Part shown: positions 33,749 through 37,964 of the stretch, one piece after another | Position numbering within the stretch: position 1 is the stretch's first letter | Layout: each line of letters opens with the position of its first letter | From: Cellulomonas sp. | GTDB lineage: Bacteria; Actinomycetota; Actinomycetes; Actinomycetales; Cellulomonadaceae | Direction: 5' to 3' | Length of the DNA stretch: 64,000 nt | Assembly (NCBI RefSeq): GCF_015234515.1 | Contig: NZ_JADGMY010000017.1 | Span: forward strand, 144,826-208,825 | The notes under the pieces: model-generated | The model's database searches: none | The model's input: only the letters and a program-made list of their open reading frames with translations | What the model was told of the DNA's origin: nothing | Translations under genes and position numbers: made by a program

Positions 33749-35839
33749 TCAGAAGAGGCTGGGCTGCAGCTGCGCCGCGACCGCGTGGGTGGCTGCCTCG
33801 CCGGGGCCCCATCGCACGCCGCCGTCGTCCGTCGACGCCCTGGCCAGTCCGTGCTTCGCCAGCAGCGGCCGGACGCGGGCCTCCAGCCACCCGCGGTAGT
33901 CCGCGTGCGCGTACGACCCGCCGCGGTACACGCGGCCGTACCCGGCGACGAGGTCCGGTCGCTCGCGCCCGAGCCACGCGAGGAACCACTCGCGCGCACC
34001 GGGGCGCAGGTGCAGGGCCATGACCGTCGCACGCTGCGCGCCGGCGTCCGCGATCGCGCCCAGCAGCCCGTCGAGGTGGTCGGTCGAGTCCGTGAGCCAC
34101 GGCAGCACGGGCGCGACCATGACGTGCACGGGCAGCCCGACGTCCCGGATCGCGCGGACCAGGGACAGCCGTGCCCGTGCGTTCGGCGTCCCGGGTTCGA
34201 GCTGCTGCTGGAGGTCGTCGTCCAGGACCGCGATCGACACCGCGAGCGACACGGGCACGTCGTGCGACGCCGCGGCCAGCAGCGGCAGGTCCCGCCGCAG
34301 CAGCGTGCCCTTGGTGAGCACGGACAGCGGCGTCCCCGACCCCGCGAGCGCCTCGATGATCCCCGGCATGAGCGTGTAGCGCCCCTCGGGCCGCTGGTAG
34401 GGGTCCGTGTTGGTGCCGAGCGCCACGTGCTCGCGCGCCCACGACCGGCGGGCGACCTCGGCGCGCAGCACCTCCGCGACGTTGGTCTTCACCACGATCT
34501 GCGTGTCGAAGTCCTTGCCTGCGTCCAGGTCGAGGTAGCGGTGCGTGCCGCGGGCGAAGCAGTTGTGCGCGATGACACCGTTGGCCACGAAGTCCCCCGT
34601 ACCTGTGGTGATGTCGAGCAGCGGCACCGGTGCGCCCAAGGGTTCGATCTCGACGACGCGGAGGTCTGCGGTGCTCTCGACGGCCCGCCCGACGACCTGC
34701 AGCGTGCGTGTGATGGCCGGTTGCACCGCGGCGAAGAACTGACGGACCACGGGACGACCGCCACGGAGCCGGACCTGCTGGACACCGATCGGGTCGGGGC
34801 CCTCACGCACCGTCTCGACATCGAGAGAGGCGAACGCTGCCTCGACCGCAGCCAGGTACGTCTCGTCCTCGTTGCTGATCCGCACGACGCCGCCCGAGCA
34901 GCCCCCTTCCGCGTCGAACGCGCCGGAGAGGAATCCCGCGTGCCACGCGCAGGGCGGGTCGTCCGGGAGCTCGATGAGATCGAGGATCCGCTCGACGTTG
35001 GCGGCGCGTGACGTGAAGATCGCGTCGAGAGCACGTCGCGTGGGCGTCGCCGCAGTGAACGGACGTCGGTGGGTCGCCACCCCGAAGTGCTCCAGGTAGT
35101 CGCGGGACCTGTCGAGAGCCTCGACGTCGGCGAGCGCCAGCCGGAACGTCGTGACGTCGTCCGCCGCGCCGGGCCTTCGGCGGTACGTACGCCGGAGCAT
35201 CGTCCCGTCGCCCCGGATCATGCCCGCGAGGTACCCGCGGCGGTAGTCGTCATGCGACTCCCGCGGGTCCCACGCGCCGTCGACGATGCCGCGGCCGAAG
35301 CCCATCAGGGAGTCGTTCCCCGTCAGGTAGGGCCGCTGCAGGGCGCCGTGAAGGGGCCCGGTGACATGCTTCCAGCCACGCTCGGTGAGGAAGCGGTGCT
35401 CACCGCTGGCGATGATCTCGGTCCCGTCCGCCAGGCGGACGCGGTAGGCCGGCTTGACCGACTCGATGCGGCCGAGCACCTCGGTGGCCACGTACCGGCG
35501 AGAGCGACCGACGAGACGCGTCCCGACGATCTGGTCACCGACACGGAGGTCAGCGAGCGCCCGCTGACGCCCGTCCGCCATGAGGATCGACGTGCTCGGG
35601 TCGAGGCAGTAGGTGCACGCGTGCAGGCAGCCGCGCATGGGGTTGACCGTCCACCGGAAGGGCACGGCCGACGCGTCGGGGACACGGTTGAGCGCGGTGC
35701 GTGAGAGCACCTCGTGAAAGGTGACCCCGGCGAAGTCCGGGGTGCGCACGCTGCGGACCAGGCCCGGCAGGGTGCGCAGGTCGAGCCCGGGCAGGGCGTC
35801 GCCCTCCCCCGCGTCGATCTTCTGCCCGTCCCAGCGCAC
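33749..35839 (-). CDS. Intein-containing Rv2578c-family radical SAM protein
   Basis: The 696-residue precursor consists of a 347-residue host protein split by a 349-residue intein (residues 78-426). The host matches the M. tuberculosis Rv2578c family from its start MRW to its end LQPSLF. The radical SAM cluster motif CLHACTYC would bind a [4Fe-4S] cluster and S-adenosylmethionine. Cys71 and Cys75 lie before the intein; the third cysteine of the mature motif is the first residue after it (CFARG). Downstream are [19 protein letters not shown] and [12 protein letters not shown], as in SplB-like proteins. The substrate is unknown; DNA-damage control suggests a repair role. The GTG at 35837-35839 is preferred because residue 1-3 MRW fits homologues; it has no ribosome binding site and may be leaderless. 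Confidence 0.95.
34562..35608 (-). mobile_element. Intein with LAGLIDADG homing endonuclease
   Basis: 349 codons in frame. Block A is [13 protein letters not shown] with Cys1. Block B reads [16 protein letters not shown], with Ser where most inteins have the Thr of TxxH. Two endonuclease motifs are intact: LAGMIRGDG (intein residues 127-135) and [11 protein letters not shown] (226-236), with both catalytic acids present. Block F is [16 protein letters not shown], and block G is VIAHN followed by Cys+1, so penultimate His, terminal Asn and the nucleophile are all there. Everything needed for splicing and for homing is seen. It lies exactly before the third cluster cysteine of the host enzyme. 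Confidence 0.96.
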
Positions 35840-35846
35840 CGCACGA

Positions 35847-35864
35847 TTCGAACACGTGTTCGAA
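35847..35864 (-). promoter_or_regulatory. LexA (SOS) box, perfect 18-bp palindrome
   Basis: TTCGAACACGTGTTCGAA is fully palindromic and contains the actinobacterial SOS consensus TCGAAC-N4-GTTCGA without mismatch. It lies 7 bases upstream of the GTG of the radical SAM gene and 6 bases after the stop of the gene before it, so it serves only the radical SAM gene. TCGAAT on the transcribed strand at 35846-35851 overlaps the box and is at -10 distance if the transcript starts at the GTG. LexA bound here would block RNA polymerase directly. Confidence 0.87.
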
Positions 35865-35870
35865 CGATGG

Positions 35871-36503
35871 TCAAGGGGGTGGGCCGATCGCGACGCGCAC
35901 GGCCGTGACGCTCGGGGACGCGGGTACCGAGGAGAAGCCGAAACGCACGGGCGGCTCGACGCGGCGCAGCCCGCCGAGGTCCTTGTCGCCCCACCGGGCG
36001 GCGAGGCCGACGACGGCGTGCTGGTCCCGCGCCGCGTAGACCTCCCACGAGCCGTCCGCCCCACGGCCACGCGTGCGGACGCCCGGGACCAGCGTCCGGG
36101 CGACGGCGTCGACCAGACCGGCGCTCGCCCGTGCGCCGACGACCGCGGCGGGCACGAGGCCGAGGAGCGCGCCGACCCGGGTCCGGCGGCCGAGCACGAG
36201 GCGCGCGTGCAGCGGACCGGCCACGACGCTCCAGGTCCGGGTCGCGGCGTCGGCGACCACGCGCACGTCCACGACGTGCACCGTGTCGAACGTGTACAGG
36301 CGGGTGACGAGGTCCACGACGTCGTCACGGCCGGCCAGCAGGGTGCGGGTCCCGTCGGCCCTCTCCACCATGACGTCGGTGAACCCGCCCAGCGGTGAGC
36401 GGCGCCACCGACCGACCACGAGGCGCGTCCCCTGCGCCGTCCCGACGCCCGCGATGTGGCCGTCGAGGACCACGGTGGGCACGCGCGGCGCTGCAGGGGT
36501 CAC
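35871..36503 (-). CDS. Conserved hypothetical protein
   Basis: 210 residues, not recognised. Sequence features are a beta-rich N-terminal part with GRWRRSPLGGFTDVMVERADGTRTLLAG and YTFDTVHVVDVRVV, then LVPAAVVGARASAGLVDAVARTLVPG, then YAARDQHAVVGLAARWGDKDLGGLRRVEPPVRFGFSSVPASPSV. No signal peptide or clear catalytic motif is visible. Homologues in related actinomycetes are likely because codon usage is normal and the gene lies in a conserved region, but no function can be assigned. It starts with GTG, 81 bases after hisS on the same strand, and its stop lies just before the LexA box. Confidence 0.75.
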   Translation of the reverse strand: MTPAAPRVPTVVLDGHIAGVGTAQGTRLVVGRWRRSPLGGFTDVMVERADGTRTLLAGRDDVVDLVTRLYTFDTVHVVDVRVVADAATRTWSVVAGPLHARLVLGRRTRVGALLGLVPAAVVGARASAGLVDAVARTLVPGVRTRGRGADGSWEVYAARDQHAVVGLAARWGDKDLGGLRRVEPPVRFGFSSVPASPSVTAVRVAIGPPP

Positions 36504-36584: not shown

Positions 36585-37964
36585 TCAGCCCGCCGCGACG
36601 ACCCGCGGCAGCAGGTCCTCGGCCGGGGGGCTCCACGTCGCGGCGTCGGCCGCCGTCTGCTCCCCCGAGCGGATGTCCTTGACCTCGTCCTGCGCGGGAG
36701 CGCCGTCGTCGGTCTCGTCGCCCACGAACCACACGAACGGGATGCCGCGACGGTCGGCGTGCTTGATCTGCTTGCCGAACTTGGCGGCGCTGGGTGCGAC
36801 CTCCGTGGGGATCCCCCGCGCGCGCAGGGCCGCGGCGACGGCGTCGGACCGCGAGCGCCGCTCCTCGGACGTCACCGCGACCAGCACGGCGGTGGGCACC
36901 GACCGGGTCGCGCGCACCAGGCCCGCCGACAGCAGGCGCGAGACGAGCCGGGACACGCCGATCGACAGCCCGACGCCCGGGTAGGTCTGGCTGCCGTCGG
37001 ACGCGAGGGTGTCGTACCGCCCACCCGAGCAGATGGACCCGAGGTCCTCGTGACCGACGAGCACCGTCTCGTAGACCGAGCCCGTGTAGTAGTCGAGCCC
37101 GCGTGCGATCTTCAGGTCGGCCACCAGGACGCCGGGCGCCCGCTCGGCTGCGGCGCTCACGAGCGCACCGAGCTCGCCGAGGCCCTCCTCGAGCAGCTCG
37201 GTCGACGCGCCGTGGCGCTCGGCGAGCTCGCGCACGCGGTCGACGACGGACGCGTCCTCGCCCCGCACGGCCGCGAGCTCGAGGCACGCGGCGGCCTGCT
37301 CCGGCGTGGCGCCGGCCTCGCCGACCAGGAGCCCGGCGACCCCGTCAGGGCCGATCTTGTCGAGCTTGTCGATGCCCCGCAGCACGGCCTCGACGTCGTC
37401 CAGGCCGAGGCCGCGGTAGAAGCCCTCCGCGACCTTGCGGTTGTTGACGAGGATGCGCACGGGCGGGACGCCGAGGTCCCGCAGGGCGCCCAGCGCGTCG
37501 GCCATGACCAGCGGCAGCTCGACCTCGTAGTGGTACGGCAGCGCGCCGGCGCCGACGACGTCGATGTCGGCCTGGACGAACTCGCGGAACCGGCCGTCCT
37601 GGGGGCGCTCGCCGCGCCAGACCTTCTGGATCTGGTAGCGCCGGAACGGGAAGGCGAGGTGCCCCGCGTTCTCCAGCACGTACCGCGCGAACGGCACCGT
37701 GAGGTCGAAGTGCAGCCCGAGCTGGCCGGCGCGGTCCGCGTCACCTGCCTGCGGGTCCTCCTGCAGCCGGCGCAGGACGTAGACCTCCTTCGAGGTCTCC
37801 CCCTTGCGCAGGAGCTGGTCGAGCGGCTCGACGGCACGCGTCTCGATCCCCGCGAACCCGTGCAGCTCGAAGGTGCGGCGCAGGACGTCGAGCACGTGCT
37901 GCTCGACGATGCGCCCGTCGGGCAGCCACTCGGGGAATCCGGACAGGGGTGTGGGACGCGCCAT
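36585..37964 (-). CDS. hisS: Histidine-tRNA ligase
   Basis: 459 residues, class II synthetase. Motif 1 region FPEWLPDGRIVEQHVLDVLRRTFE is present, with the LRKGETSKEVYVLRR-type substrate loop in place of the more common LRPEGT form. Motif 2 is VWRGERPQDGRFREFVQADID, and the histidine signature SGGRYDTLAS is followed by GLSIGVSRLVSRL (motif 3). The C-terminal anticodon domain has VAVTSEERRSRSDAVAAALR. It charges tRNA(His). In many actinobacteria it sits near aspS, as here with two genes between. The ATG start is clear. Confidence 0.96.
   Translation of the reverse strand: MARPTPLSGFPEWLPDGRIVEQHVLDVLRRTFELHGFAGIETRAVEPLDQLLRKGETSKEVYVLRRLQEDPQAGDADRAGQLGLHFDLTVPFARYVLENAGHLAFPFRRYQIQKVWRGERPQDGRFREFVQADIDVVGAGALPYHYEVELPLVMADALGALRDLGVPPVRILVNNRKVAEGFYRGLGLDDVEAVLRGIDKLDKIGPDGVAGLLVGEAGATPEQAAACLELAAVRGEDASVVDRVRELAERHGASTELLEEGLGELGALVSAAAERAPGVLVADLKIARGLDYYTGSVYETVLVGHEDLGSICSGGRYDTLASDGSQTYPGVGLSIGVSRLVSRLLSAGLVRATRSVPTAVLVAVTSEERRSRSDAVAAALRARGIPTEVAPSAAKFGKQIKHADRRGIPFVWFVGDETDDGAPAQDEVKDIRSGEQTAADAATWSPPAEDLLPRVVAAG

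Follow-up and report, generated by a model that had tools for sequence, protein, structure and literature searches.

Why does an intein interrupt a radical SAM enzyme immediately before the third cysteine of its cluster motif? The case lies in a 64,000-nucleotide stretch of Cellulomonas sp. DNA (hereafter the window, to which all positions refer). The minus-strand gene at 33749–35839, stop included, encodes an Rv2578c-family radical SAM protein with an in-frame intein, and its reading frame is uninterrupted across host and insert. The start was placed at GTG 35839–35837, which is residue 164 of the long open frame and corresponds to position 1 of the NCBIfam model NF038136. The host part matches the Rv2578c-family radical SAM model NF038135 (502.9 bits, cutoff 430), and the whole gene matches NF038136, "intein-containing Rv2578c family radical SAM protein" (802.7 bits, cutoff 700, model positions 1–573 of 574). 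Pfam assigns Radical_SAM (43.7, cutoff 29.5) and LAGLIDADG_3 (25.7, cutoff 22.5); the Pfam intein-splicing match is weak (21.6, under the cutoff of 35.8). Compared by sequence with solved structures, the C-extein gave no match at E 0.1.

The intein spans 349 residues (34562–35608, minus strand) and splits the host between CLHACTY and CFARG, exactly at the coordinates given in the preliminary description. The N-extein segment CLHACTY (35609–35629, minus) holds cluster cysteines one and two, hereafter C-7 and C-3. The intein starts CLDPST, its Cys1 codon (35606–35608, minus) specifying the splicing nucleophile at third-ligand spacing, and finishes VIAHN, with the C-terminal splice residues His348-Asn349 encoded at 34562–34567 (minus). 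The C-extein picks up at CFARG. Its first residue, Cys+1 (34559–34561, minus), is the second nucleophile and, after splicing, the third cluster ligand, a double role that the preliminary description had also recognized. We aligned the window copy with 25 relatives that are 44–89% identical to it. All 26 rows share C1, H71, D134, D332, H348, and N349, and nearly all share S68 and E234. Block B reads SGEH, with Ser68, nearly invariant in the relatives, where Thr is usual (TxxH). The element, with C1, H348, N349, and C+1 in place, is a class 1 intein for which self-excision and ligation of the exteins are predicted.

The insert also contains a LAGLIDADG endonuclease, recognized by two motifs, both acids, and a matching predicted fold. 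Motif 1 (35204–35233, minus) keeps D134 and motif 2 (34904–34933, minus) keeps E234, as had been noted before. The predicted fold of the intein has a mean pLDDT of 88.2 and a pTM of 0.62. Its best Foldseek matches are inteins with endonucleases (TliVMA, PI-PfuI, and PI-SceI), with poor superposition over the whole intein (TM by query 0.31–0.38, rmsd 16–20 Å); the endonuclease part matches I-DmoI with a TM by target of 0.68–0.76. By sequence, the nearest solved relatives are the gp41-1 and DnaB inteins (E 5e-4 to 1e-2). The window genome has intein sequence in its replicative helicase DnaB too (L100, G000:C23:292042-293289). In the predicted precursor (mean pLDDT 72.4), the N-extein is poorly modelled, at 38–61 in the first eight blocks of ten. 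Therefore, no geometry was taken from this model.

The position of the insert has a consequence for the cluster motif. The precursor reads CLHACTYC, in which C-7, C-3, and the Cys1 of the intein have CX3CX2C spacing; once the intein is spliced out, Cys+1 takes the third place. The motif in the precursor is duplicated, not broken, because Cys1 doubles the third ligand. Of the earlier account, the part that has the motif whole after splicing stands, and the part that has it absent before splicing does not; that the precursor cannot hold a cluster can be read only as conjecture.

A perfect LexA/SOS box, TCGAACACGTGTTCGA, lies at 35848–35863 (no strand assigned), 8 bases before the GTG start. One box of the TCGAACACGTGTTCGA type was found in the window versus 0.01 expected, and six such perfect boxes occur in the 4.2 Mb of the genome. 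Elsewhere in the genome, the box sits where an impB/mucB/samB polymerase frame starts (L186), within a polA-like frame (L187, by reading), inside the frame of a SAV_6107-like HEPN protein (L188, G000:C33), and next to two frames without a Pfam match, namely L183 and L185 (imuA-like by reading). Scoring at least 10 of 12 letters at the same position relative to the motif, with 2 of 155 rows cut off, we found the box conserved in 118 of 146 Rv2578c rows (28 misses): 69 of 96 full, 21 of 21 mini, and 28 of 29 empty. At the matching position it occurs in none of 7 PA0069 rows and in 9 of 3060 shuffles. Because empty genes carry the box too, it belongs to the host gene and not to the intein, and the idea that the intein brings about SOS control is rejected. 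The earlier suggestion of a damage-induced host enzyme gains support from a box that is both perfect and conserved, so that such control is probable. The intein would thus ride on the damage response of its host gene and would not create such a response. A sigma-70-like promoter seen by eye around the box (TTGACC-N17-TCGAAT) is not claimed; a promoter scan found none.

In Streptomyces venezuelae, the radical SAM gene vnz_31145 is bound by LexA and goes up about 20-fold with mitomycin C (PMC9380542). The minus-strand neighbours of the window gene are a 210-residue ORF (35871–36503) and a histidyl-tRNA synthetase-like ORF (36585–37964), and downstream of 33749 on the same strand lies an aspartyl-tRNA synthetase-like frame (names by reading). 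Streptomyces phage Samy uses an Rv2578c-family gene for its attachment (PMC12924846); the gene family is thus the target of a second kind of mobile element.

An intein unique to the window genome is rejected, since 471 related stretches were found in genome contigs, 80 of which were kept. Among 200 genomes of the same taxonomic family, 157 have a match at E 1e-3, a number that also counts other radical SAM genes, and 46 score above the cutoff of the intein model. Among 396 genomes of the phylum, the corresponding numbers are 115 (at 1e-60) and 14. We examined 175 of 182 loci, leaving out two duplicates, one broken gene present twice, and three further loci. An insert is present in 146 of the 175, a number that includes duplicates and seven PA0069-family genes, and it is always at the third-cysteine site (142 sorted by motif with a script, 4 by eye). 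The site is therefore not a matter of chance. The script sorted 171 loci into 119 with inserts longer than 230 residues, 23 with mini-inteins, and 29 with empty sites, which is what the proposed survey for empty sites had sought; with 80 named loci picked by intein similarity and the family loci chosen by hand, the share of empty sites carries no meaning. Mini-inteins measure 154–214 residues, and the longer ones 288–355 residues. The four loci missed by the script are three with a variant host motif and L129 of Cryobacterium algoritolerans, a broken copy in which Ser replaces Cys1 and the C-extein, by reading, runs out of frame. A second broken copy, L029 (G085), has a host frame discontinuous with the start of the intein.

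In a host tree of 155 distinct rows built by a quick method (104 full, 22 mini, and 29 empty), the presence of the intein changes 17 times, and full, mini, and empty genes are interleaved among close relatives. The intein is thus patchily distributed, with a full-length form that has the LAGLIDADG endonuclease and mini-inteins that lack it. The locus L149 (JACEFY010000027.1), titled Stenotrophomonas maltophilia P13, groups with L181 of Microbacterium and is likely a contaminant or mislabelled contig.

Comparisons within the genus bear on how the intein moves. The intein of the window and that of the same-genus locus L014 are 93% identical in DNA, with a dS of 0.12 versus 0.35 for the host (one pair, simple method). 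The lower value of the intein suggests transfer after the hosts parted, and this one pair indicates that the intein probably moved between Cellulomonas species more recently than the host genes diverged. L014, which has the intein, and L060, which is empty, have host DNA that is 97.5 and 98.8% identical on the two sides of the site (dS 0.04). We looked for co-conversion of the flanks; identity near the site is raised against the empty L060 as well. Between the window and L014, dN/dS is 0.49 in the endonuclease region and 0.09 in the host, and dN is 0 over the final 34 residues of the intein. Among columns with 85% conservation or more across 24 other rows, the window intein departs on its own at five (Y36S, S236G, R290Q, K302T, and K311E), L014 on its own at none, and both deviate at eight further ones. 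The endonuclease of the window copy is therefore probably decaying. The preliminary description had the element possibly still mobile; this holds for the family, which is patchy and shows signs of transfer, and is doubtful for the window copy.

The same site is used in other radical SAM families. In the search of the phylum, PA0069-family genes (L090–L096) carry the same intein at the same cysteine. Against the PA0069 model NF033668 (cutoff 360), L090 scores 357.2, L095 363.2, and the gene of L093 377 bits; empty homologues occur in the same taxonomic family (L189–L192). When viral contigs were scanned with the intein alignment, 18 relatives came up. Sixteen are readable at both ends, and all 16 inteins directly precede the third cysteine of a motif that is CX3CX2C or, in DUF5131, CX6CX2C. 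Fourteen of these matches run from end to end; L204 and L205, which have the same flanks, match from residue 16, and their start was placed by eye. Three more viral cases (L254–L256) precede the third cysteine, as do the inteins of a Streptomyces plasmid (L212) and of a QueE gene in an actinobacterial genome (L245, G297). The QueE intein has Ser1 instead of Cys1, and the intein of L256 seems to end in Asp, not Asn. In L209 and L210, only the endonuclease part matches the family of the window intein. Near the start of the endonuclease frame these two loci have MN(K/R)TKIEW, as in DUF5131 proteins, and no splicing blocks were seen; they may be endonucleases borne by introns within that same gene.

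The hosts are diverse. QueE is assigned above its cutoff of 206.1 in L208 (221.5) and L245 (309.2), DUF5131 in L206, L207, L212, L254, and L255 (169–321 bits, cutoff 28.9), and DUF1848 in L200 (89.4, cutoff 30.5). Radical_SAM is above the Pfam cutoff in L195, L196, L198, L199, L204, and L256, and below it in L193, L194, L201, L202, L203, L208, and L245. DUF5131 and DUF1848 we take to be radical SAM-like, with the cysteine motif and weak matches to TIGR04471 (36–68 bits in L206, L207, and L212, cutoff 355) as further basis. The name SplB-like for L193, L194, and L196 is our own label, based on the weak matches that L193 gives to PA0069 and Rv2578c. In the host frame of L197, which is cut by the contig end, the model scan saw no domain. 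We rejected phage Rctr197k (L211, KX853510.1, Rctr197k_024) as a radical SAM case; its host frame matches an SNF2-related family (21.7 bits, below the cutoff of 24.9), and its intein is 26% identical. Its GenBank name, "radical SAM protein-like", probably derives from the similarity of the intein.

We consider it about 80% probable that the window carries a mobile intein of class 1 and that the lineage to which it belongs is enriched at the third cysteine of the radical SAM cluster motif. By established class 1 chemistry, an N-S acyl shift at Cys1 would be followed by transfer of the N-extein to Cys+1, the future third ligand, and cyclisation of Asn349 would then release an enzyme with an ordinary CX3CX2C motif. 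The site may be favoured because an aromatic residue, the cysteine, and a Tyr or Phe form a context that is common to radical SAM families, suits splicing, and can hardly drift in its DNA. Among 23 host contexts, which were chosen with Cys at -3 and +1, position -1 is Tyr, Phe, or Trp in 18, Asn in 3, and His in 2, and position +2 is Tyr or Phe in 19. The intein thus appears adapted to an aromatic-Cys context, and we are most likely dealing with a lineage of homing inteins suited to it.

An alternative that gives the site a function is a switch, in which oxidation of C-3 and Cys1, or a metal or Fe-S cluster held by C-7, C-3, and Cys1, would block splicing until the cell is reducing, so that the SOS-controlled enzyme would be freed only under conditions in which its cluster lasts. 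In the precursor, C-3 and Cys1 make up a CXXC pair (CTY/C, the slash marking the splice junction), as needed for a redox trap of the MoaA type, and Cys1 is present in 145 of the 146 insert-bearing loci, duplicates included. In the Pyrococcus abyssi MoaA intein, a native disulfide between Cys-3 and Cys1 blocks splicing (Callahan 2011, as reviewed in PMC3922620 and PMC10663303), and the Mycobacterium smegmatis intein DnaBi1 is inhibited via its catalytic cysteine (PMC6195587). However, the pair follows automatically from the site and class 1 chemistry, and its conservation is therefore no evidence of regulation. The hosts L014 and L060 are near-twins and one of them is empty, indicating that the gene does not need a switch, and empty genes sit among intein-bearing ones in the host tree. 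Moreover, the Ser1 relatives, namely the QueE intein and the broken L129, cannot form the disulfide, and the class 1 intein DnaBi2 is unresponsive, so cysteine oxidation is not a general switch (PMC6195587). A switch therefore seems unlikely.

It could also be that the site is nothing special, inteins occupying conserved residues of any protein. Insertion beside conserved motifs and active sites is a recurring theme (PMC5050341), and an intein with Cys+1 requires a conserved Cys anyway. Four phage inteins in other hosts (L257, L263, L265, and L267) nest beside the DUF5131 group (99/97), and they too have Tyr at -1. The host of L257 is DNA adenine methylase-like; those of L265 and L267 are, by reading, ThyX and an HNH protein, one of each standing in the scan list. 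The next relatives are inteins of helicase-like hosts, L211 and L294 (L294 by reading). Against this reading, the 16 viral loci were not selected by site, and their hosts differ greatly, with QueE, DUF5131, DUF1848, and SPASM-type proteins among them; yet all 16 inteins precede the third Cys and none the first or second.

Control viral loci argue in the same direction. They were taken by similarity search and a splicing-block pattern beside GIFDAEG; the pattern kept 80 of 84 loci, earlier viral relatives among them, and the control left out three loci on contigs already counted. Only 3 of the 81 newly taken loci have a radical SAM flank, all of them of the lineage of the window intein (L254–L256), while at least four of the 81 (L258, L264, L270, and L271) match short of the intein start. 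The 59 control host frames scanned comprise terminases, helicases, polymerases, and others, and the 25 families listed for them, of 37 in all, do not include Radical_SAM. In a tree of 30 inteins from the radical SAM site and 20 others, the site label needs 2 changes versus a shuffled mean of 15.9, and with 23 bacterial inteins added it needs 4 versus 23.3; none of 500 shuffles was as low in either case. An exclusive clade of radical SAM-site inteins is rejected (p-AU 0.003). Because several branches are long and the sample, drawn from similarity searches and a few peptide patterns, is biased, we limit the claim to a lineage enriched at this site. We regard an indifferent site as decidedly unlikely.

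Somewhat bolder is the idea of metal-site mimicry, in which the CX3CX2C-type site completed by Cys1 would bind a cluster or zinc or form a disulfide and so tie up the nucleophile, and splicing would report on the redox or Fe-S state of the cell; in this way a single lineage would have been able to settle at the third cysteine in several radical SAM families of phages and bacteria. If it were true, the SOS-controlled enzyme would appear only after a damage signal, in a reduced and iron-sulfur competent cell. We hold it to be improbable.

That the insert is dead, with splicing and the host gene lost, is very improbable; although its endonuclease part evolves fast with private changes at conserved columns, and broken copies are known (L129 and L029), the splicing ends are unaltered, the catalytic residues are kept, and both exteins are open and constrained.

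A mobile lineage enriched at one cysteine turns an odd insertion into a testable rule, namely that one intein lineage has its niche at the cysteine that supplies the third cluster ligand in radical SAM enzymes. QueE, DUF5131, SPASM types, SplB-like proteins, and Rv2578c proteins, with both Cys1 and Ser1, offer natural replicates for the question of regulator versus parasite in metalloproteins. The system also supplies an intein suited to the CxY/C context and a LexA-box radical SAM gene of unknown reaction whose activation could be traced by splicing. Taken alone, the window copy belongs to a family for which NCBI already has a model.

In MoaA, another radical SAM enzyme, the P. abyssi intein has Cys at -3 and Cys1, as in the window; the host is archaeal. 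This intein with its redox trap is known in print, and intein-bearing Rv2578c proteins are known from NCBIfam, where NF038136 bears out the earlier remark on family members with inteins in other actinomycetes. NF038136 shares the host family, the site, and the intein family with the window gene, which differs in its own endonuclease changes. The model has 574 positions versus 317 for the intein-free model, and its insert is therefore shorter than the 349 residues in the window. The M. smegmatis DnaB and Mycobacterium tuberculosis SufB inteins, like that of the window, lie in replication or Fe-S proteins and are proposed as stress sensors (PMC6195587), but they have other hosts and other sites, and DnaBi1 belongs to class 3. 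The LexA-bound radical SAM gene vnz_31145 recalls the window host with its LexA box; the available text of PMC9380542 mentions no intein. A literature search that reached few subscription journals, and its sources in part, found no description of inteins that recur at the third cysteine from one radical SAM family to another. What is new, as read from the sequences, is that relatives of the window intein are placed before cluster cysteine three in a wide variety of radical SAM and similar proteins (SplB-like, PA0069, QueE, SPASM types, DUF5131, and DUF1848) of phages, a plasmid, and chromosomes.
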